IMG/VR virus record: IMGVR_UViG_3300028315_000511
Location: 1 to 28,373 of that record
Length of the DNA: 28,373 bases
Source of the DNA: a virus
Reading direction: 5' to 3' (one strand)
A program made the translations under genes and the position numbers. Positions 12,248 through 23,611 of this stretch are shown here, one piece after another (position 1 is the stretch's first letter; each line of letters opens with the position of its first letter). A model generated the notes under the pieces. It had not been told where the DNA came from. It did no database searches and was given only the letters and a program-made list of their open reading frames with translations.

Positions 12248-12451
12248 TCAGACTCCCTTTTCCTGCGGTCGAGTTCGAACGCGCTTCACGCCGAGGCTTC
12301 GATCTCGCGACTGCATGCTGCCCAGATTCTTCGGATAGGCCGGACCCCGTTCCGGGATGGCCGGAACCGTTCCCCTGCCGACGGGATCCATCCCGGTCGG
12401 AGTCCGAGCCTGGCGCTTCCCGCGGACCGGATGGTACGAGGACGCCTTCAT
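12248..12451 (-). CDS. Small basic protein downstream of major capsid gene
   Basis: A 67-residue Arg/Lys/Pro-rich protein whose ATG overlaps the capsid stop as TGATG. The frame is open further upstream, antisense-like through the capsid gene, so this ATG is the sensible start. It looks disordered and nucleic-acid or capsid binding in character, with no motif that I recognise. The tight spacing (1 bp to the beta-helix gene) supports its being real. Function unknown. Confidence 0.55.
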   Translation of the reverse strand: MKASSYHPVRGKRQARTPTGMDPVGRGTVPAIPERGPAYPKNLGSMQSRDRSLGVKRVRTRPQEKGV

Positions 12452-13368
12452 CACGAAACCTGTGCGCCGAGCACAAACCGCCAGTCGCGCCATACCATGG
12501 CGTATCGGACGTACGCCCGGTACTTCGCCGCGAACGTGTCGAAGTCCTCGACGAAGCCATACTCGAGCGGAATGCGGTCGATCCACTTGAGGAAGAGACG
12601 CATGTAGCTCGAGTCCATCATGAACCAGTTGTTCGTGTCCGTGAGGTAGTTCCACTCGACGAGCCGGTAGCGGCCCTCGTGGACGTTCGCGTTGTTGTTC
12701 GCCGTTTCGAGCTTCCCGGGCGAGTTGACGATCTCGAAGGCTTCCTCATAGAGGTCCGGAGGGAAGAGCAGCGTGTCCGGCATGACCTGGATCCGCTCGG
12801 CCTGTGGCCCGCGGAACTGGACCATCTGCACGCGGGCTGTCTGGACGCTCGTCGCCGTGAGAGAGCCCGTGATCACGTTATCGAAGCCCGTGGCCGTGCT
12901 CGCTCCGGTCGTGGTCGTGTGAGAGTCGCTGCACAAGGCAACGCCCTCGCTGTTCGTATAGAACAGCGTATCCACTGCAAACGCGTTGTTGAACATGCGG
13001 GCGGCATGCTGCTGTCGCGTCCGGTAGGCCGAAGCCGCCAGCGCCCGGGGCTTGTCGTCCCAGATGTTGTACTGATCGTCGTCCCAGAGCTTTCGCTCGA
13101 GCTGGAAGCCGTTCACCCACTCGAGGTAGGTGGCGGTCGAGTCGTACCCGAGGTGCTGGTCCTGATATGTGACGGTCCCCTGGAACTGCTGGAAGTCCTC
13201 GATCGTGGTCACGCTCGAGAACGTCATGTTGTTCCGGCCGTTGTGGGGAACCATGTCGTAGAGCACCGGAATCATGTCCGGGTGCGCGTTGTACTCGTCG
13301 TTGAAGATCCGCTCGAAACGAGGATCGAGAAGATCCGCAAAGTTCGCTGAAGTGTGCGGAACTGCCAT
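12451..13368 (-). CDS. Major capsid protein, Mu gpT-like HK97 fold
   Basis: A 305-residue protein, the size of Mu gpT. It opens with a short helical arm (TSANFADLLDPRFERIFND), then the long beta-structured P-domain and the ALCSDSHTTTT motif at about 144-154, which corresponds to the LFS-x-x-H-P segment of gpT-type capsids. Further matches are ERIQVMPDTLLFPPDLYEEAFEIV and the C-terminal FDTFAAKYRAYVRYAMVWRDWRFV strand-helix. It forms the head shell. It sits after scaffold and decoration-like genes, and AGGGGAC lies upstream of its ATG. Confidence 0.85.
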   Translation of the reverse strand: MAVPHTSANFADLLDPRFERIFNDEYNAHPDMIPVLYDMVPHNGRNNMTFSSVTTIEDFQQFQGTVTYQDQHLGYDSTATYLEWVNGFQLERKLWDDDQYNIWDDKPRALAASAYRTRQQHAARMFNNAFAVDTLFYTNSEGVALCSDSHTTTTGASTATGFDNVITGSLTATSVQTARVQMVQFRGPQAERIQVMPDTLLFPPDLYEEAFEIVNSPGKLETANNNANVHEGRYRLVEWNYLTDTNNWFMMDSSYMRLFLKWIDRIPLEYGFVEDFDTFAAKYRAYVRYAMVWRDWRFVLGAQVS

Positions 13369-13381
13369 TTCTCAGGTCCCC

Positions 13382-14113
13382 TTAGGTGTTCACAGAGGTG
13401 TAGTTGCCGCCATAGAAGTGATCCGTGATGAACACTTCCGCCCAGGTCTTGGTAGAGCCATCCGCTGCGGCATCCTTGTGATACAGGTGAACGCAGCGAA
13501 TGCTGCACGCCGCAGTTGTCTGGACATCCGCTGTCGCATCCAGCTCATCATACGTTGACGTGAGCTGGATACCGGCATCTTCGCCAGGACCAAACGTGCT
13601 GAGATAGAACGTGTCGCCCACGGCGATGTCTGCCGGGAATGCGATGATCGGTACGGCTGTAGTCGTGACGGCCGTGATCTTCCGGAGGATGCCTGCGTTG
13701 GCGCCGGTCGCCCCCCAGATATAGCCATCGTCGTAGGTGGCCTGCGTCGCGGAAAAGGTCAGAAGCAAGCCCGTTGTGTCCGCGGTCGTATTGCTGACCG
13801 CAGTCAGCGCCGTCCCGCTGGTAGACCCGCCAGAGAGGCGGCCATGCCAGAGGGCCTGCGAGTTGATGATGACTGAAACGTAGGCCGCAGGGTCGCTTCC
13901 ATCGGACTGCTGCGCAGTGTTTCGAGTCGTCGGAGCGTCCAGGGAAATTCCGAGCACGTCGGTCTGGTCGTTGGTCTCAGCCATGAGGACGCCATCGTTG
14001 TTCGCAAGAGCCGAAGGCTCAACGGGGATCCCCTCAGTTCCGTTCCATGTTTCTCCGATCTGAAACTTGCGCACAACGGGCGCATTGCCGGAGAGCAGAG
14101 TCGAAAGCTTCAT
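13382..14113 (-). CDS. Probable head decoration/stabilisation protein
   Basis: A 243-residue beta-rich, Thr/Ala/Gly-rich protein encoded immediately before the major capsid gene. The N-terminus (VVRKFQIGETWNG) and repeated short strands resemble capsid accessory proteins of other phages, which sit in this position between scaffold and capsid. Two Cys lie near 203-208. No enzyme motif is present. A decoration role is inferred from gene order and composition. Confidence 0.6.
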   Translation of the reverse strand: MKLSTLLSGNAPVVRKFQIGETWNGTEGIPVEPSALANNDGVLMAETNDQTDVLGISLDAPTTRNTAQQSDGSDPAAYVSVIINSQALWHGRLSGGSTSGTALTAVSNTTADTTGLLLTFSATQATYDDGYIWGATGANAGILRKITAVTTTAVPIIAFPADIAVGDTFYLSTFGPGEDAGIQLTSTYDELDATADVQTTAACSIRCVHLYHKDAAADGSTKTWAEVFITDHFYGGNYTSVNT

Positions 14114-14157
14114 ACTGCATCTCTACTTTTCCGGCCTTGAAGGCTCTCGTTGAAGCG

Positions 14158-14457
14158 TTACACCTTCCCGTGAAAGGACTCGTGAACGTAGATCTTTCGA
14201 TAGTGCCCCGGTTCCCGGCAGGCATCGCATGCACCGTTCACGCCACCGTAGAGCTCGTGCCAATCGTCCTTCGGTTCGTAGTGCGCCTTCCGGGAGTTCC
14301 ATTTGTGATCGCACGATAAGCACAGCAGGATGGTCTGTCGAAGCGCAGCAAGATCCGAGATGTACGACCCGGTCACCGCTCCGATACGACGCCCCGGAGC
14401 AACGGCGCGAGCTACCGCGCGACGGCGTTCCAGCTCTTTCGGGGAGATCACCCTCAC
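14158..14457 (-). CDS. Small zinc-ribbon-like protein
   Basis: A 99-residue protein beginning at GTG, which overlaps the scaffold stop as GTGA. The first third is basic and Ala/Arg-rich; the second half has a pair of CxxC knuckles, CLSCDHKW at about 46-53 and CDACREPGHY at about 77-86, and WHELYGG between them, so it should bind one zinc ion. Zinc-ribbon proteins of this size occur in phage late operons as assembly or regulatory factors. Role unknown. Confidence 0.6.
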   Translation of the reverse strand: MRVISPKELERRRAVARAVAPGRRIGAVTGSYISDLAALRQTILLCLSCDHKWNSRKAHYEPKDDWHELYGGVNGACDACREPGHYRKIYVHESFHGKV

Positions 14458-15236
14458 GCGGCGGCGTCCTTGCGCGCCTTCAGGATCTCGAGCTCCTTCT
14501 GGAGGTTCGGGTCCTTGGGGCCGCTGTAGAGGCCCCGCTTGATGGCCTCCCGATAGTACTCCACGCGGTGCGGCTCGACCCAGCTCGGGAAGCCCGACCC
14601 GGAGCTGCCGCCGTTCGACTTCGAGGGAGCGGATCTGCGTCCCGATCCCGTCCCGGCCGCATCCACGGTTGCGCGGTCTCCGGTCGTCTCCTTGACCTCG
14701 CTCTTTCGGGGCTTCCCCGGAGAGGCCCCGTAGACGATCCGAAGCGCGGCGAGCTCCGTGGCCGCAGAGTCGGGGTGGCCCTCCTGGATCAGCTCCTCGA
14801 AAGCAGCCTTCGCTTCCTTGAAGGCATCGCTCGTCCGGTCGGCGAGCTCCGGAATCGCGTCCCGGAACTCCTTGAGCTTCGATTTGATCACCGTCTCGGA
14901 CTGCTGCGCGCGGCTTTGCTCTGCGAAGCGCTTCTCCGCGGCCTGGATCATCTTCGCGGCCTTCACCTCGGCCAGGTACTCCATGCCCTGAGCCTGAGAA
15001 ATGTGACCGTCGTCGATGAATTTCTGAACCTCGGCCGCCGAGTAGATGCGGTCTTCGGCGGGCTTCTCGGGCTCCCTGGGAGCCTCCCGGCGCGAGGCGC
15101 GGAGCTCCTCGAGCAGTTGCTCCTGCCGCTCGGCGACCTTGCTGTTCTGTTCGGCGATCTTCTCGGCGAAGAGATCGAGCTGGTTCGATTCTTCGGGCTT
15201 CTCAGGAGTCTCGGTGGACTCAGGAGCCTCTGCCAT
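14454..15236 (-). CDS. Capsid scaffold protein
   Basis: A 260-residue acidic, strongly helical protein between portal and capsid genes, the normal scaffold place. The start chosen is the second of two adjacent ATGs, because AAGGAG is five bases upstream of it and only two from the first. Residues about 20-170 are coiled coil, rich in Glu, Lys and Gln, with EERIYSAAEVQKFIDDG-like charge blocks; residues 180-215 are Ser/Gly-rich and disordered; the last 45 residues form a conserved-looking helical end, likely the capsid-binding part. No assembly protease motif is visible. Confidence 0.7.
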   Translation of the reverse strand: MAEAPESTETPEKPEESNQLDLFAEKIAEQNSKVAERQEQLLEELRASRREAPREPEKPAEDRIYSAAEVQKFIDDGHISQAQGMEYLAEVKAAKMIQAAEKRFAEQSRAQQSETVIKSKLKEFRDAIPELADRTSDAFKEAKAAFEELIQEGHPDSAATELAALRIVYGASPGKPRKSEVKETTGDRATVDAAGTGSGRRSAPSKSNGGSSGSGFPSWVEPHRVEYYREAIKRGLYSGPKDPNLQKELEILKARKDAAA

Positions 15237-15429
15237 CATCACTCCTTGCGATGGAAGGAACCCCATCGCTCAAGACATTCAAAGACTTGCAGAACCGACA
15301 CCGCAGTTCAAGTGTCCCTTGAAGCCTGGGCTCTAAATGGAACTGCGCCAGGAGCTTCCGACACCTCTGGCAGTTCCAGGACTCGAGATGGGGCTCAGGC
15401 CGTTTCGGCCGGATCGGATGAGCGCCCAA
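15220..15429 (-). CDS. Com-like zinc-finger protein (Mu Com family)
   Basis: A 69-residue protein. It has two CxxC pairs, C20-x2-C23 (NCQRCRKLL) and C44-x2-C47 (RCRFCKSLN), with an ELRC strand before the second pair, matching the pattern of Mu Com, an RNA-binding zinc finger that activates translation of mom. The first start downstream of a good ribosome site (GAAGGAG, four bases) is TTG at 15429; no ATG or GTG fits. The gene overlaps the preceding gene by 35 nt and the scaffold start by 17 nt. No mom-like gene was recognised, so the target could be the overlapped scaffold message. Confidence 0.6.
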   Translation of the reverse strand: MGAHPIRPKRPEPHLESWNCQRCRKLLAQFHLEPRLQGTLELRCRFCKSLNVLSDGVPSIARSDDGRGS

Positions 15430-15763
15430 GAAGCTCCTTCGGGAGCCGCAGGCATTCGTCACGGGCCTCCATCCTCTCTCGCAACATCGCGATTTCCCAG
15501 GAGATTCGATCTCTCTCCACGCTCTCCATGTACTGTGTCGAGCGCATCCGCTCTTCGAGTATCGAGAGGCTTCTCTGGTCTCGATCTTGGATTTCCCCGA
15601 CCTTGCGCAGGTAGAGGTCCCAGGACTCCTGACCGACAAGGATGTTCACGCTCGCCTGTTCTTTTTGGGCTTGCCGGGCTTCATGGGCGCGCCGGCTCTT
15701 CCGCTCGCGCTCTCGGTTCTGCCGGGCCTTCTCCGCCTTGTACTTGAGAAGGTCCGTTCTCAT
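15395..15763 (-). CDS. Basic coiled-coil protein between portal and scaffold
   Basis: A 122-residue highly charged helical protein, with Arg/Glu/Lys repeats at 1-45 and 65-110, ATG overlapping the portal stop as ATGA. It shows no named domain. Small helical proteins at this position may be head completion or scaffold helpers. The frame is clean and coupled, so the gene is likely real; the role is unknown. Confidence 0.55.
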   Translation of the reverse strand: MRTDLLKYKAEKARQNRERERKSRRAHEARQAQKEQASVNILVGQESWDLYLRKVGEIQDRDQRSLSILEERMRSTQYMESVERDRISWEIAMLRERMEARDECLRLPKELLGRSSDPAETA

Positions 15764-18120
15764 TGCGGCGTCCCCGTGCCTACGGGCAGGCTCTCATTGA
15801 CGGGCTCATTGCGGTTCACGAGCGTCGGCCTTCCGCCTCCCGAGCTTCCGTTCGACCCGCCCCCGGGCGCGGCGTTCTGCTGGCGGTCCGCCTGGAAGCG
15901 CTCGGCCGCCTGGAGGATCTGCGCCTGGCGCTGCGCCTGCGCGGCCTGGCGCGCCAGCATCCCCAGGTAGATGCTGAGCCGCTGCTGCTCCTGGGACGAG
16001 AGCGTCTGCGCAGGCGTCTGCCCCATCTCGTCGGGCTCCTGCAGCAGTTCCCGGATCTTCTGGGCATGCGCATCGAAATCGCCCTCAGCGGGCGGCCCCT
16101 GCGGGACCTGGCCTTGGAGGATCAGTTGGAGGGCCTCTTCTGCGCTGACGGGGGCCTCGCTCGACTGCGGCTGCGGCTCGTTCCAGTATTTCTCGGACAT
16201 CTGGCCGAGGCTCGCGGTGTAGTCCGAGATCACGCGGTAGACCGAATCGGGCGTCGAGAGCCCGAGCTGGATCATGAGCGGGTTGGCCGCGAGATTCAGG
16301 ATCTCGACCAGGGCGCTCTGGAGAGCCAGCTTGCTCGAGTTGAGCACGTTCGCATGGAAGTCAAAGTGATAGTCCCGGAGGTCGTCCGCGCGCTCGATCT
16401 CGACGAAGGGGTCCTCTCCCGGCTTCGAGATCCCCACCACGCGGATCTTCTTGCGCTCGGGCAGGTAGTGGCGGTCCAGCGCGTACATGGTCCGGAAGAT
16501 CTGGAGCAGGCCCTTGAAGTAGCGCCGCAGGATCCGCTCGGGGCGCGCTTCGCCCTGCGCGAGCACCTGCTGGATGCCACTCGAGGTGCGCAGCGCCGAG
16601 CTCTTCCCCGCCGGAATGCGGCCGAGCTGCAGGTCTCCGATCGAGACGAGCTTCTCCTCCAGGCTCTCCCCGAGGGCGATGAGGTTCGAGCCGACTGCGG
16701 TAGACTGCGCCTGGAGTCGCTGCGGCACGAGATCCTTGGAGGGATCCTGCACGGGAATGCCTACGCCTGGGCCGATCCGGATGTCCTCGGGTTTGAGGTT
16801 GCTCGACTGCCGGTAGAGAAACCACGGGAAGAGTTCGAACATTCCCGCGTCGGACATCGCGTTGAAGATGGTGGCCTGGAAGTCGTGCATGGACTCCATG
16901 AGCTCCGGGAGGCCCATGCCGCGCCAGGTGCCCTGGACCGGGATCATGACCGCATGCGCGATCGGACGCCGGGGAGGGATCTGCGGGCACTCCTCCGTGA
17001 GCGGCCGGGCGCGGAGCAGGAATCCGGGTCCCGCCAGCAGCACCGTCCAGACCACATCGAGGCCGCCCCAGGTGTCGAAACAGATGAGGCGCTTCATCTG
17101 GGCGTGATCCTCATCCGCGTCCTCGGACGTGCTCGACTCCTGGCCGCGGAGCGAGCGACGCTGGCGGTCCAGCTCGCGGTCCGAGTCCGACCAGTCGCGC
17201 CAGCCCTCGATGCCCTCGAGATCGGATTCCTGCGTCAGGTCATAGAAGCCGTACTCGATTCCCCGGAGGATCTCGTCCCGAGTCGGATAGTCCACGAGGA
17301 TGACGTGAGGCGCCCCCCCGGGATTGCTCGGTCCTGGGGGCTGAAGATTCAAAGCCCAGGCGGGCGCCAGCACGTCCTCCCAATCGTAGACCATGCTGCA
17401 CGGCCCGCGGTACGTCTCCGCGTCCGACTCGATCTGCATGATCGTTCCGGGCCGGTCCTCGTCCGTGTAGAACCGGACGAGGTACTCCTGATCGCCCTGA
17501 GAGACCTCCCAGTCCCAGCCGTCCGAGCCCTCCATGGGACGCCAGCGCCCCGGCGTGAAAGCCCGCTCGACGAGCTGCTGGAAGTAGCCGACGGGAGGAA
17601 TTCCCATCGGAATCGGTCCGAACTCGCGCACCAGCAGGATCTTGCGGACTTCTTTCACCCAGCGCGTGAGGGCTGTGAACTCACCATCCCGTGAGAAGTT
17701 CATCGCGGATTGCTGGACGAGATCCTCTCCGTCCTGCTCGATGAAAAACTGGTGATCGAGGAGCTGGTCTACCTTGCGCTCGCGATCCGCGTTCTCTTTC
17801 ACGAGAGCGCGCGCGTTCACCATGGGCCGCGTCGCCATGGCCGAATTCTGGAGCGTGTCCTCGGTGCGCAGAACCGCCGTGAGGATATCGGGAAGCTGGA
17901 TGTTCGAGGACCCCGGGAAGGGCTCATCCACAGGGACGTCCACCTGCATCATCTTGGCGTAGCGCTGCTGCCGGAGGGACTTCTCGATCTCCCGAGAGCG
18001 GTCGTCTTCCTCGAAGAAGGTCCGAACGCGCTCGACGATCTGGTCCTTCGAGGTCTCCCCGAGGGGGACAGGCTGCGGGCGCGGGCGCGTTCTCATGGGA
18101 ATCTGAGCCGGCGCCGTCAT
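15760..18120 (-). CDS. Portal protein
   Basis: A 786-residue protein, close to the P22 portal (725 residues). The ATG overlaps the preceding stop as ATGA, with GGAG five bases upstream; a larger open frame before it is antisense-like. Features are the N-terminal helical stem, F-P-G-S-S-N-I-Q-L-P at about 74-83, a Cys/Trp-poor wing domain rich in D/E/W, a helix-rich stretch from 470 to 650 that fits the portal stem and crown, and a Gln/Gly-rich disordered tail (720-780). It forms the dodecameric channel for packaging and ejection. The order terminase-portal-scaffold-capsid supports it. Confidence 0.82.
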   Translation of the reverse strand: MTAPAQIPMRTRPRPQPVPLGETSKDQIVERVRTFFEEDDRSREIEKSLRQQRYAKMMQVDVPVDEPFPGSSNIQLPDILTAVLRTEDTLQNSAMATRPMVNARALVKENADRERKVDQLLDHQFFIEQDGEDLVQQSAMNFSRDGEFTALTRWVKEVRKILLVREFGPIPMGIPPVGYFQQLVERAFTPGRWRPMEGSDGWDWEVSQGDQEYLVRFYTDEDRPGTIMQIESDAETYRGPCSMVYDWEDVLAPAWALNLQPPGPSNPGGAPHVILVDYPTRDEILRGIEYGFYDLTQESDLEGIEGWRDWSDSDRELDRQRRSLRGQESSTSEDADEDHAQMKRLICFDTWGGLDVVWTVLLAGPGFLLRARPLTEECPQIPPRRPIAHAVMIPVQGTWRGMGLPELMESMHDFQATIFNAMSDAGMFELFPWFLYRQSSNLKPEDIRIGPGVGIPVQDPSKDLVPQRLQAQSTAVGSNLIALGESLEEKLVSIGDLQLGRIPAGKSSALRTSSGIQQVLAQGEARPERILRRYFKGLLQIFRTMYALDRHYLPERKKIRVVGISKPGEDPFVEIERADDLRDYHFDFHANVLNSSKLALQSALVEILNLAANPLMIQLGLSTPDSVYRVISDYTASLGQMSEKYWNEPQPQSSEAPVSAEEALQLILQGQVPQGPPAEGDFDAHAQKIRELLQEPDEMGQTPAQTLSSQEQQRLSIYLGMLARQAAQAQRQAQILQAAERFQADRQQNAAPGGGSNGSSGGGRPTLVNRNEPVNESLPVGTGTPQ

Positions 18121-18464
18121 GCGATCTCCAGGATGCCGAGAGGAAGGTTGCGGACGAAGCGCTCCGCGGTGCCGTCCGTCATCTGGCGCCCGCTGCACTC
18201 CTCCATGTAGAGCAGCCCCGCGCGCTTCCAGAGGACCGGGAGGTCCGCGGGCTTCGGGTCGCAGGCAGCGCAGATCGTGTGCTCCGAGAAGGAGCCGTCC
18301 CGGTGCTGGAGGCGAAGATACCGGGCGCTCGGGTCCCGGCGTCCCCACTGAAGCACGCGGCGCGTCCGGGGATCCAGGCGCACGACTTCCCGGCAGGGTT
18401 TGTCGCAGAGCGCGCAGGCCCCGGGCACCTTCGGCTTCAGAGCGGGAACTTCATCTTCGGGCAC
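18117..18464 (-). CDS. Zinc-binding small protein
   Basis: A 115-residue protein from a GTG with AGGAG eleven bases upstream. It has CALCDKPC at about 17-24 and ICAACDP at about 64-70, a two-knuckle zinc site, with a beta-hairpin (YLRLQHRDGSFSEHT) between. The end is amphipathic. It overlaps the previous zinc gene by 28 nt and the portal start as ATGA. One of a series of small zinc proteins between terminase and portal; role unknown. Confidence 0.6.
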   Translation of the reverse strand: MPEDEVPALKPKVPGACALCDKPCREVVRLDPRTRRVLQWGRRDPSARYLRLQHRDGSFSEHTICAACDPKPADLPVLWKRAGLLYMEECSGRQMTDGTAERFVRNLPLGILEIA

Positions 18465-18667
18465 TGCGCCTGAAACTCCTCATCGATCGCTTCCAGTCGC
18501 TCCGTGAAGAGCGCGGCGACCTCGGCGTGAAGGGCGTCGATCTGCTGCTGGCGGGAGTCCACGAGCCCCGCGCACGCCTCGCAGTAGTCGAGCGCACGCT
18601 GCCGGCCCCGCTTCTGCGTCTGCGCGCAGAGCTCGTGGCAGCCATCGCAGACCGTGGCCTGGCTCAC
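18437..18667 (-). CDS. Zinc-ribbon small protein
   Basis: A 76-residue protein starting at GTG (GTGA overlap). It has CDGCHELC at 7-14 and YCEAC at about 28-32, so the pattern is a short zinc knuckle, followed by a charged helix from residue 38. It is the second of the neighbouring zinc proteins and is not a copy of the first. Short length and tight coupling suit a phage assembly or regulatory factor; role unknown. Confidence 0.55.
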   Translation of the reverse strand: MSQATVCDGCHELCAQTQKRGRQRALDYCEACAGLVDSRQQQIDALHAEVAALFTERLEAIDEEFQAQCPKMKFPL

Positions 18668-18873
18668 TTGTAGACGCCCGTCCCGAGCACGGCCTTGCGC
18701 CGCGGCTGGACCGCCGGGAGCGCCTTGCGGGGCTTCTCGTAGGACTTGGGACCCATGCCGACCGTACCCTTGCGGGGCATGAAGATCCCACCGGACTCGC
18801 CGACCTTGCGGCGCGTCTGTCCGGCAATGACCTTCCGGGCCTCTTCCATCATGGGCTGGTGTCGGATCTTCAC
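18664..18873 (-). CDS. Small basic protein
   Basis: A 69-residue Lys/Arg-rich protein from a GTG that overlaps the tiny basic gene upstream (GTGA). Pattern K-x-G-x-x-G and several RK pairs suggest nucleic-acid or capsid binding. No domain recognised. Its position between packaging genes and the zinc proteins is the only clue to its job. Confidence 0.5.
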   Translation of the reverse strand: MKIRHQPMMEEARKVIAGQTRRKVGESGGIFMPRKGTVGMGPKSYEKPRKALPAVQPRRKAVLGTGVYK

Positions 18874-18998
18874 TTCCCCTTCCCCTTCTTGCCCTTGATG
18901 TACATTCCGGGCTTGCCCTTCTTCATCGTCCGGGTGCCTTCCTTGGCTCCCTTCTTGGGGCCCCTCGAGAGCGGACCCTTCTTTCCGTCGGTCGGCAT
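18870..18998 (-). CDS. Tiny Lys/Gly-rich basic protein
   Basis: A 42-residue protein, about half Lys, Arg and Gly, containing GPKKGAKEG and KGKKGKGK. The start is well supported: AAGGAG lies seven bases upstream, inside the end of the large terminase gene. Its stop overlaps the next start as GTGA. Composition predicts a disordered polycation, perhaps for nucleic acid or capsid contact. It is too short for routine gene callers. Confidence 0.55.
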   Translation of the reverse strand: MPTDGKKGPLSRGPKKGAKEGTRTMKKGKPGMYIKGKKGKGK

Positions 18999-19001
18999 CG
19001 T

Positions 19002-20720
19002 CTATCTCCTTGCGTAGGACACGCCCCGCGTAGGGTAGTGCCGGATGGGCGTCTGGATGGTTCGGCCGCCCTGGACCAGGGCGGAGAACCTCGGCTCATC
19101 GTTGCAGAAGTACCGCAAGATGGCCGGATAGTCGTCGTTTTTCTGCTTGGCCTTTTGCTTCTGGTCCTTGTCCGTCCCGGCGCGCCAGTCCTCCCACATG
19201 AAGCGCTTCATCTGGTATATGGCGTTCGTGCACCGGGGGTGAAAGATCAGCCTCGGCCGGCCCGTGTCGTGATCGGGCCGGAGGAACTGGTCCACGAGCT
19301 CCCGGCCCACGTCCGAGGACTGCGCAGGCTCGCAGTAGAGCCCCGCCGCATCGAACTCGTCGAGCCAGGTCCGGTCCCGGATGGCCCCGGAGGGATTCTG
19401 CGCCATGCGCGGGTCCACCAGCCGCCGCACCGTGCGCAGGCCGAGCTCTTCCTCCATGGCCTCCACTTCGGCGCGGAGCTGCACCGGGTCTCCCTTGCAG
19501 TCGAGATCCGCAATGACACAGTAGTCGTCGTTCGGGTCCACACCGATCCAGGCGCTCATGTGAGGCTTTCTCGGATGCGGGTCCAGGACCCAGATCACGG
19601 GCCAGCCCCGGTTCCATCCGAACTCCTCGACATGACAGTACGTCACCGCATCCTCGCTTCCGCAGGTGAGGCACTTGTTCTCGAGCACTGGACTGTCTTC
19701 TCCGCAGGTGAAGCACCAGCCGCGCGGGGTATCGGTGAAGAGCTCGTGCACGCGGTTCGAGAAGCGCACCTGTTGCCCGAAGATGCGAACGCGCTTTTGT
19801 CGCTCGTCCATCGTCGCCATATGCTCAGCGACGGCCGCCTGGTTCAGGTGGATGTTGTCGGTCGTGTGCAGCTCGAAGCACTCGTATCCGTCTACCTTGC
19901 TCGGAGAGCCCTCGGTGCCCTTTTCGTAGATCTCCTCATAGAGCCAGTCCACGTTGATCGAGGGGTCGTCGGGCCAGGTCATCGCGAGCGCAAGCCATCC
20001 GTTTGCGGACATCACGCGGATCTTGTTCTCGTTCCAGATCGGGAGTGTCGGGGGCTCGTCGAAGAGCACGAAGTGACAGTGCGCAGAGGCGAAGTCTTCG
20101 GGCTTCTGATCGTAGCTGAAGAACTGAATCGTAGACTCGCCCATGATCTCGTCGATATTCTCGGGGTTTCGGTAGAGCACGCGCAGGGTGCGGCTCTTCG
20201 CCGACCAGGATCGCTCCCACTCGCCATCGATGAGACACGTTCTCGGGATGAGGCCCCAGTGCCCGAGCTTGCCTCCGATCTCATCCGATCCGTTCCAGGA
20301 GTTCCACCGGAGTTTCGGGAGAATTGTAGGCTCGAGGATGTTCACGAGGGACTGGCAGATGATGCGGCCGTTCACGGGGCCGCGGAGCTGCTTCATGTAC
20401 TTCTCTTCGTACTGCCGCAGCGAATGCGGGATCACGCCCGTCGCCTGAATGACGCCTTCGGCGAGCATCCCTGTGGTTTTGGAGCTGCGATTTCCCCCGA
20501 ACATGGCGCGCATGAACGCGGGAGAGGCGTGCATGGCCTCGACCTTGGGGGAGGCGGGCATGTAGTAGAGAAGCTGGTTCTCGCGCTTGTCGTCCTCGAC
20601 AGTGCGGAAAGCGATCTTCATGATGCGGCGGAAGTCCGCATCCGAGAGCTGGTTCAGATGACCGGGCTCGAGCCTCTTCAGGTCGAAGTCGGCGGGGATG
20701 ATGTCGCGGGGCTCGCTCAT
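19002..20720 (-). CDS. terL: Large terminase subunit (ATPase-nuclease)
   Basis: A 572-residue DNA-packaging motor. The N-terminal ATPase has a Walker A-like FGGNRSSKT (residues 74-82; Ser80 where most have Gly) and Walker B FVLFDE (217-222). Residues 336-353 hold two CxxC pairs (CFTCG at 336-340, CLTCGS at 350-355), a zinc ribbon between the two domains that most terminases lack. The nuclease follows: D380, D395 and D405 in WIGVDPNDDYCVIADL, D436 in RRLVDPRMA, and NDDYP near 528-532. The ATG overlaps the small terminase stop as ATGA. It cuts and drives DNA into the head through the portal. Confidence 0.9.
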   Translation of the reverse strand: MSEPRDIIPADFDLKRLEPGHLNQLSDADFRRIMKIAFRTVEDDKRENQLLYYMPASPKVEAMHASPAFMRAMFGGNRSSKTTGMLAEGVIQATGVIPHSLRQYEEKYMKQLRGPVNGRIICQSLVNILEPTILPKLRWNSWNGSDEIGGKLGHWGLIPRTCLIDGEWERSWSAKSRTLRVLYRNPENIDEIMGESTIQFFSYDQKPEDFASAHCHFVLFDEPPTLPIWNENKIRVMSANGWLALAMTWPDDPSINVDWLYEEIYEKGTEGSPSKVDGYECFELHTTDNIHLNQAAVAEHMATMDERQKRVRIFGQQVRFSNRVHELFTDTPRGWCFTCGEDSPVLENKCLTCGSEDAVTYCHVEEFGWNRGWPVIWVLDPHPRKPHMSAWIGVDPNDDYCVIADLDCKGDPVQLRAEVEAMEEELGLRTVRRLVDPRMAQNPSGAIRDRTWLDEFDAAGLYCEPAQSSDVGRELVDQFLRPDHDTGRPRLIFHPRCTNAIYQMKRFMWEDWRAGTDKDQKQKAKQKNDDYPAILRYFCNDEPRFSALVQGGRTIQTPIRHYPTRGVSYARR

Positions 20721-21506: not shown

Positions 21507-21659
21507 ATGGATGAGCCCTCCAAGATGACGATCCGACTTCCGGAGCCGCTGCACGTCGAGGCGAAGCTGGCGGCCGTTCGGGCGCGTCTGTCGCTTGAGC
21601 GCTGGGTGCGCGAGGCGATCGAAGCAAAGCTGAAGCGCGAGCAGAGGAAGAAGTCATGA
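21507..21659 (+). CDS. Ribbon-helix-helix (Arc/HicB-like) regulator
   Basis: A 50-residue protein. MTIRLPEPLHVEAKLAA at 7-23 gives the strand then first helix, and LSLERWVREAIEAKLKRE at 28-45 the second helix, the ribbon-helix-helix DNA-binding pattern. The ATG at 21507 or the one at 21525 could be used; neither has a strong ribosome site. It lies divergent from the terminase operon across about 130 bp, so it may repress either side. Dimeric repressor function is inferred from the fold. Confidence 0.62.
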   Translation: MDEPSKMTIRLPEPLHVEAKLAAVRARLSLERWVREAIEAKLKREQRKKS

Positions 21660-22145: not shown

Positions 22146-22472
22146 ATGGCGCGGCGGTACCGGCCGTACCGGGCGAACTACACGACGCGCGGGAAGGCCA
22201 AAAACACGGTCAAGAAGTACCACCCGCCGAGTGGTCTGCGCGACGCGAGACTGGCGCTGGGCTGGTCGCAGAGCAAGCTGGCCAAGAAGGTGGGCGTGCA
22301 CCGCGAGACGATCACGCGCATGGAGATGCAGGGCTACATGCCGCGGCGAAAGACGTGGGAGAGGATCCTCAAGGTCATGCGACTCGGATACGATGACCTC
22401 TACACACTTTTCGGTAAGAACTCGGCGCTGCGACGTGAGATTGCGCAGCTCAAGAAGGAGCTCGGGAAGTGA
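22146..22472 (+). CDS. XRE-family helix-turn-helix regulator
   Basis: A 108-residue protein with a basic N-terminal arm (1-28) and an XRE-type helix-turn-helix at about 31-63: LRDARLALGWSQSKLAKKVGV is helices 1-2, then HRETITRMEM the recognition helix. The remainder is helical and ends QLKKELGK. Its last codons coincide with the AAGGAGCTCGGGAAGTGA linker, which starts the next gene by GTGA. It likely regulates this cluster or the terminase side; target unknown. Confidence 0.75.
   Translation: MARRYRPYRANYTTRGKAKNTVKKYHPPSGLRDARLALGWSQSKLAKKVGVHRETITRMEMQGYMPRRKTWERILKVMRLGYDDLYTLFGKNSALRREIAQLKKELGK
22455..22472 (+). repeat. Coupling linker copy 1 (short)
   Basis: The 18 bases AAGGAGCTCGGGAAGTGA hold a ribosome site, eight bases of spacer and a GTGA stop/start. 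The same sequence ends the two longer linkers in this cluster. Here it forms the end of the XRE gene and the start of the Ntn-hydrolase gene. Confidence 0.7.
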
Positions 22473-23050
22473 GCATCATCTGCGCGATGACCGACCCGAA
22501 AACGCGTTCGGTATGGGTTGGATCCGATACCCAGACCTGCAGCAACTCTGACCTCATCGTCGACCGAACGACTCCAAAGTGGGATTTCGGCGGGGAATGG
22601 GCCATCGGAAGTGCAGGGAATCCCGCAGCGCGACAAGCCGCGGGTCGGATTCTCTGCGCGGACCTGGAACAATCCATGCATGAACTTTGCTCGGGCATCC
22701 ATGACGAGTTGAAGCGCATTGGATGGGATTCGCGCTCCTCGGACGGGGATCCTCCATTCCTCAACCTCGGAATGGTCGTGGTTCGGAAGGGCCTCATTTA
22801 TGAACTCGAGCCTGCGACCATTGGAGTCTGGCCCGTCGATTCCGACTTCATCGCGATTGGGAGCGGCTGTCGGTTCTCTTACGGGGCATGGGCCGCACTG
22901 CGGAATCTTCCGCAAAGCAAATCCCACCCTCGATGGACTCTCACGCAATGCATCGAAGCGGCCATCGAATACAACACGAGTTGCGGCGGGATCGCCTGGG
23001 TGAGTGAGATTAAGACGGACATTCCAGAGAAGCCGGAGGGTGGGAAATGA
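22469..23050 (+). CDS. Proteasome/HslV-like Ntn-hydrolase
   Basis: A 193-residue protein matching the small proteasome-type Ntn-hydrolases. After Met removal, Ser2 would be the nucleophile (HslV has Thr1). Then come a VWVGSDT strand (15-21, the GGD-G-Q position of HslV), K37 as likely catalytic Lys, the buried FGGEWAIGSAGN (40-51), and FIAIGSGCRFSYGAWAAL (127-144), equivalent to HslV's LIAIGSGG followed by a helix. The last helix, IEAAIEYNTSCGG, also fits. Start is GTG after AAGGAG. It may act as peptidase or amidase; no HslU-like ATPase is near. Assignment is by motif order. Confidence 0.7.
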   Translation: MSIICAMTDPKTRSVWVGSDTQTCSNSDLIVDRTTPKWDFGGEWAIGSAGNPAARQAAGRILCADLEQSMHELCSGIHDELKRIGWDSRSSDGDPPFLNLGMVVVRKGLIYELEPATIGVWPVDSDFIAIGSGCRFSYGAWAALRNLPQSKSHPRWTLTQCIEAAIEYNTSCGGIAWVSEIKTDIPEKPEGGK

Positions 23051-23088
23051 AGTTCCGGGAGCAGGTTCCGAAGGAGCTCGGGAAGTGA
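23035..23088 (+). repeat. Coupling linker copy 2 with 13-base insertion
   Basis: The linker begins GGAGGGTGGGAAATGA, continues with a 13-base insertion relative to copy 3, then GGTTCC and AAGGAGCTCGGGAAGTGA. It overlaps the end of the Ntn-hydrolase gene, a 13-residue minigene, and the start of the next gene. Outside the insertion the two copies differ at only a single base in 41. Confidence 0.7.
23047..23088 (+). CDS. 13-residue linker minigene
   Basis: ATG overlaps the Ntn-hydrolase stop as ATGA and the frame ends AAGTGA where the next GTG begins. It encodes MKFREQVPKELGK. The AAGGAG inside it serves the next start. The peptide probably has no job of its own and the frame may only carry ribosomes onward. 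Confidence 0.35.
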   Translation: MKFREQVPKELGK

Positions 23089-23408
23089 ATGGGAAATACG
23101 AGGCTTATCTCGAACGTAAGCTTTTCGAGGAAGATTACTCAGATAAAGGTCGCAGGGTACCGGTGACACCGCGACTCTCGACTGATCTGAAGGATCGCAC
23201 TTGGCTCGTCGCCGAATCCAAGCACGGACGCATCATCTACATCCGCATCGACGAGATCCAGTCGATTTTTTTCTCGAGCGACGGACCGTGCGCGTCGATC
23301 GAGACGCCCGGCTCCTACTTCGACCTCGCGCACACACCCGATCAGATCTGGGCGCTGCTCGAGAAGCGGAGGGTGGGAAATGAGGTTCCGGAGGAGCTCG
23401 GGAAGTGA
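23085..23408 (+). CDS. Hypothetical protein
   Basis: A 107-residue protein from GTG, with AAGGAG eight bases upstream. The middle has alternating strands (RTWLVAES, GRIIYIRIDEIQSIFF) and an acidic C-terminal helix. The last fifteen residues are simply the coupling linker read in frame, ending VPEELGK. No domain recognised. Function unknown. Confidence 0.55.
   Translation: MNGKYEAYLERKLFEEDYSDKGRRVPVTPRLSTDLKDRTWLVAESKHGRIIYIRIDEIQSIFFSSDGPCASIETPGSYFDLAHTPDQIWALLEKRRVGNEVPEELGK
23368..23408 (+). repeat. Coupling linker copy 3
   Basis: A 41-base copy beginning GGAGGGTGGGAAATGA and ending GGAGCTCGGGAAGTGA. Unlike copy 2 the frame of the upstream gene reads straight through it. The internal AGGAG is eight bases before the next GTG start. 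Confidence 0.7.
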
Positions 23409-23611
23409 AGCCAGCACTGGAGGCGCGGGTGGATCTGGCGGTGCTCGAGGCTTCGGGGTGTCTTTCTTGCGGGGAGATCCTGGCCTCGGACGAGGGGATG
23501 ATCTGCTCGGAATGCGAGGGGGACTCGGGGGTGCAGATCGGGGACCCGGCGCTGGAGGCGCTGCGGGCCAAGGTGCGGGAGCTGCTGGATGATCGCCATG
23601 ACGGAAGATGA
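23405..23611 (+). CDS. Small zinc-knuckle protein
   Basis: A 68-residue protein from GTG. C19-x2-C22 (CLSCGE) and C34-x2-C37 (CSECEG) form a short zinc knuckle; the last third is an acidic helix. It is coupled to the gene before by GTGA and overlaps the next start by 23 nt. Similar small zinc proteins also appear in the virion operon but share no clear sequence with this one. Role unknown. Confidence 0.55.
   Translation: MKPALEARVDLAVLEASGCLSCGEILASDEGMICSECEGDSGVQIGDPALEALRAKVRELLDDRHDGR

Follow-up and report, generated by a model that had tools for sequence, protein, structure and literature searches.

Proteasome homologs encoded by phages, PPH and AAH, were described in 2021 by Fuchs, Alva, and Lupas (PMC8665760). 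PPH proteins are about 140 aa long and lack helix H2, and connectase, a monomeric proteasome relative, acts as a protein ligase (PMC8665760). BPH proteins form double rings, have no known unfoldase, and outside the Betaproteobacteria are reported to use Ser1 as the nucleophile (PMC5777263). As a kind, phage proteasome-like genes are not new (PMC8665760), and since hundreds of sequenced phages already harbor an HslV-like gene, a single new case is not surprising. The locus described here, a divergent member with a putative Ser nucleophile that lies beside a regulator and outside the head cassette, offers a further independent setting for tests of function, one that also allows the need for a Thr nucleophile in phage proteasome homologs to be tested.

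The locus is part of virus record IMGVR_UViG_3300028315_000511, whose 28,373 bases make up the window analyzed here, and which carries a minus-strand virion cassette and a divergent plus-strand cluster that starts at about 21510. Searches of public phage records with the virion genes (12451-20720, minus strand) brought up relatives that are all very distant: no close one for the terminase, and remote matches only for the portal. The length of this SU10-type portal (862 aa) is unusual. The features referred to below are as follows.

12451-13368, minus strand: major capsid protein, virion cassette
15760-18348, minus strand: SU10-type portal, 862 aa (PF23899, E 2e-16)
19002-20720, minus strand: terminase large subunit, virion cassette
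Virion cassette, minus strand: tail proteins and an amidase
21510..21659, plus strand: Arc/HicB-like small DNA-binding protein, heading the plus-strand cluster (phrog_9151, E 7e-5; phrog_6506, E 4e-4)
Between the Arc/HicB-like gene and the XRE gene, plus strand: two small ORFs without assigned function
22146..22472, plus strand: XRE-type HTH regulator gene, 108 aa (HTH_3, E 3e-11)
22447..22473, plus strand: first copy of a 27-nt repeat (family D1, three copies), containing the ribosome-binding site and start of the peptidase gene
22469..23050, plus strand: proteasome-like Ntn-hydrolase gene, 193 aa (phrog_1040, AlphaFold2 fold, BPH/HslV superposition, alignment columns)
23085..23408, plus strand: ORF of 107 aa and no clear family that follows the peptidase gene in the cluster, its start supplied by repeat copy two

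The plus-strand cluster that carries the peptidase gene probably represents early genes. A promoter scan of the region returned a single site, on the minus strand and at chance level. The peptidase gene starts with GTG at 22469, behind AAGGAG at 22455-22460 with a spacing of 8 nt, and this start shares a 4-nt GTGA overlap with the TGA stop of the XRE gene (22470-22472), in agreement with the translational coupling of the two genes that an earlier note on this DNA had proposed. The choice of start is backed by homology, as the homologs open with M-T-x-I and the ORF 22469-23050 opens with M-S-I-I. The 193-aa protein has no propeptide; the putative nucleophile directly follows the start Met.

The proposal, made from the sequence, that this gene encodes a proteasome/HslV-like Ntn-hydrolase is supported by a PHROG match, by the AlphaFold2 fold, and by superpositions on BPH, HslV, and proteasome beta. 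The match is to phrog_1040, "peptidase HslV family" (E 5e-10, residues 15-186; 1.4e-11 in the search of the record itself), a similarity beyond what chance would give. Profile searches against HslV-type families thus bore out the expected kinship for phrog_1040 but not elsewhere: Pfam gave no match, and the NCBIfam HslV equivalog models, with cut-offs at 137 and 158 bits, scored it at 11.5. Scores so far under the family cut-offs rule out an ordinary HslV. A single-sequence PDB search found no match to the fold family. A tblastn search of phage records detected no close relative, peptide patterns picked up none among IMG/VR or GTDB contigs, and a search of four bacterial genomes, run without a positive control, found no match. 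Taken as a whole, the 193-aa protein is a real, divergent member of a kind of phage protein that has already been described.

Because no close relative was found, the search was widened stepwise, starting from E. coli HslV against phages. In this way, HslV-like genes came to light in phages of Klebsiella, Escherichia, Aeromonas, and Vibrio; one of the encoded proteins matched 592 phage records and another, of a longer type, 187. The longer type also occurs on plasmids of Rhizobium, Sinorhizobium, Bacillus, and Streptomyces and in at least 80 IMG/VR contigs; 42 genome contigs, from Rhizobiales, Frankia, Streptomyces, Paenibacillus, and other bacteria, carry it as well. In length and host range, on which the assignment is based, it agrees with AAH as described by Fuchs, Alva, and Lupas (PMC8665760). 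Some of these loci have features of their own. In five (L086:3387-4537, L069, L078, L092, and L094), the end of a Prok-JAB gene (JAMM, HTHPGGPA..S.TD) overlaps the proteasome-like gene by 4 nt, and in L086 the pair has terminase on one side and portal on the other. Such a neighborhood of JAB and proteasome-like genes brings to mind Rpn11 of the proteasome. Three phage contigs each carry two AAH-type genes in tandem (L027:4107-5243, L096:3450-4564, and L107:3452-4543), which could allow hetero-oligomeric rings. In Aeromonas phage 2L372X (L019:1001-1963), an AAH-type gene is directly followed by a second peptidase gene annotated as HslV family, apparently of the other type.

With 53 AAH-type homologs in the alignment, AlphaFold2 returned a model of the proteasome-beta/HslV-type alpha-beta-beta-alpha fold (pLDDT 86.5, pTM 0.83). 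In the element names assigned here, the model comprises strands S1 (3-8), S2 (15-19), S3 (21-26), S4 (29-36), and S5 (44-49), helices H1 (52-63) and H2 (70-83), strands S6 (101-106), S7 (109-114), S8 (119-122), and S9 (127-131), helices H3 (134-144) and H4 (154-168), and strand S10 (177-181), an order identical to that of proteasome beta. VIA-align gave BPH as the best structural match (Z 19.2, 175 residues, 2.7 A), with HslV at Z 18.3 and proteasome beta at Z 17.6. In the superpositions, including that on HslV, model residue 2 falls on chain residue 1, the catalytic position. The Ntn fold anticipated in the earlier note was recovered in the model. From the single sequence, AlphaFold2 was uninformative (pLDDT 39), and the fold claim hence depends on homology together with the alignment and has no independent prediction behind it. 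On that basis, we are confident of the predicted fold.

The motifs pointed out previously, Ser2, GSD (18-20), Lys37, AIGSAG (45-50), and FIAIGSGC (127-134), all lie at the places expected for them. Over 54 sequences, Asp20, Lys37, Gly47, and Gly131 are invariant, the first three being the equivalents of Asp17, Lys33, and Gly47 of proteasome-like Ntn-hydrolases. Ser2 aligns with Thr2, present in 53 of the 53 homologs; alignment and superposition together place Ser2 and Lys37 at active-site positions and agree with Ser as the predicted nucleophile. In the yeast proteasome, the corresponding beta5-T1S exchange costs only 40 to 45% of activity (PMC4792962). Ser132 is the equivalent of proteasome Ser129. 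The alignment columns of Asp166 and Ser169 are occupied by Asn169 and Cys172, respectively, and AAH-type proteins likewise deviate there.

The 193-aa protein fits no subfamily cleanly. PPH is excluded by the size of 193 aa and by H2, which PPH proteins lack and which is predicted here; what is shared with PPH is a phage-encoded, proteasome-like protein without an unfoldase and the GSG motif. HslV has the fold, the catalytic Ser/Thr-Asp-Lys, and the GSG motif in common with it and differs by the family cut-offs and by its HslU partner, which was not found in the record. The likeness to AAH extends to a length of 180 to 200 aa, the H1-H4 fold, the catalytic Asp, Lys, and Gly, the lack of a propeptide and of an unfoldase partner, and, in many relatives, a gene start that overlaps the preceding gene by 4 nt. 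Set against this are the Ser nucleophile, where 123 of the 124 collected AAH-type proteins have Thr (a trait that lies outside the published AAH definition), an identity of at most about 25% across the whole length, an H1-H2 connection shorter by about ten residues, and the adjoining XRE gene. The AAH and PPH labels on the collected sequences were assigned here, AAH from length and host range; with these labels, the 193-aa protein scored 32 bits with a profile of 12 AAH-type proteins versus 12 bits with one of 12 PPH-type proteins. A tree of 41 proteins placed it with the AAH types (support 95/80), on the longest branch of that tree (2.73 changes per column), and a smaller tree agrees. From the tree and profile scores on the AAH side, together with the longest branch, it is a group I outlier, probably derived from AAH.

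We know of no biochemical data on AAH or PPH proteins. Considered as a whole, the observations are best explained, in our view with somewhat better than even confidence, by a very divergent Ser-nucleophile peptidase of bacterial group I (HslV, BPH, AAH, and PPH), nearest to AAH. Removal of Met1 by the host methionine aminopeptidase would expose an N-terminal Ser, which, activated by Lys37 and Asp20 and with Gly47 providing the oxyanion hole, could cleave peptide bonds. The model contains every one of the helices H1 to H4, through which HslV and BPH subunits touch within their rings, and the protein therefore probably self-assembles. HslU and AAA_2 unfoldases were searched for and not found in the record, which may be a fragment, in agreement with the earlier observation that no HslU ATPase is near. 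Without an unfoldase in the record, the enzyme would act in a BPH-like manner, on small, flexible, or unfolded substrates, or borrow a host partner, possibly host HslU, and it may be a slow peptidase acting on accessible or unfolded substrates. Other findings speak against this explanation: the D166N exchange, which Asn169 mimics, strongly impairs yeast beta5 (PMC4792962), and the profile of 124 AAH types gives the 193-aa protein 22.8 bits, under the 33.8 bits of E. coli HslV. The altered Asp166 and Ser169 equivalents, and the precedent of connectase as a monomeric relative with ligase function (PMC8665760), would also suit a protein that is inactive or repurposed, for instance as a connectase-like ligase, for acyl transfer, or as a binding subunit. 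However, the protein retains equivalents of the nucleophile, of Asp and Lys, of the oxyanion Gly, and of Ser129, and H1 and H2, both missing from connectase, are predicted. The sequence makes peptidase activity likely and a nonpeptidase function rather unlikely. A Ser1-type BPH picked up by a phage, which would make the protein a peptidase of double-ring form from the BPH branch instead of an AAH-type protein, would account for the best structural match, BPH (5ovs, 5ovt, and 5ovu), and for a Ser nucleophile such as that reported in part of the BPH branch (PMC5777263), and a clade with BPH was not rejected (p-AU 0.37). Nevertheless, a profile of 13 BPH proteins (11 of them fetched from genomes) gave the 193-aa protein only 11.2 bits, a score that many proteins of the AAH and PPH types exceed, the free tree groups it with the AAH types, and it did not join L159, the single M-S-starting protein of the BPH set. 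We therefore give such an origin very little credence.

What the peptidase favored here might do is best approached from its surroundings. Its place behind the XRE gene, in a divergent and probably early cluster, weakly points to regulation or host takeover, and not virion building, as its task; removal of host or regulatory/repressor proteins, one of the functions put forward earlier, is possible. A more specific version, in which a serine-type, unfoldase-free peptidase that is translationally coupled to XRE serves as the posttranslational arm of an early or lysis-lysogeny switch by destroying a regulator or host protein, is quite improbable. An XRE neighbor is not a family rule and was rejected as such: among 81 upstream ORFs of AAH-type loci, considering the 25 commonest of 40 families, the pairing does not recur, and HTH_3 matched only in the window's own gene. 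The other function put forward, trimming of virion proteins, fared worse. A protease that processes prohead proteins, be they scaffold or capsid, might stand in for a prohead protease that the record seems to lack, and indeed searches of the record for S78 and ClpP-type proteases found none, in line with the earlier remark that no other assembly protease is seen, although one may be concealed among the unannotated ORFs that separate portal from capsid. Genes of relatives often lie beside terminase or portal (TerL-peptidase-portal in phiM5 and TerL-JAB-AAH-portal in L086), and their neighbor families include HNH, TerL, Mu F, and portal. In contrast, the gene studied here lies outside the head cassette, next to XRE and on the other strand from the structural genes, and T5-like phages keep their gene among nucleotide-metabolism genes. 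Moreover, four AAH-type loci have a canonical S78 prohead protease directly downstream, so that the relative does not replace S78 there. A general capsid-maturation role is not supported, and we regard a virion-assembly protease at this locus as very improbable.

The start region of the peptidase gene belongs to a small repeat family. A 27-nt module (about AGGTTCCGAAGGAGCTCGGGAAGTGA) with ribosome-binding site and GTG start is present in copies at 22447-22473, 23063-23089, and 23383-23409 and precedes three consecutive genes, with starts at 22469, 23085, and 23405. A larger near-copy lies on both sides of the gene at 23085-23408 (with further positions 23034-23058 and 23367-23391), and this gene looks as if it had been inserted by recombination between repeats.
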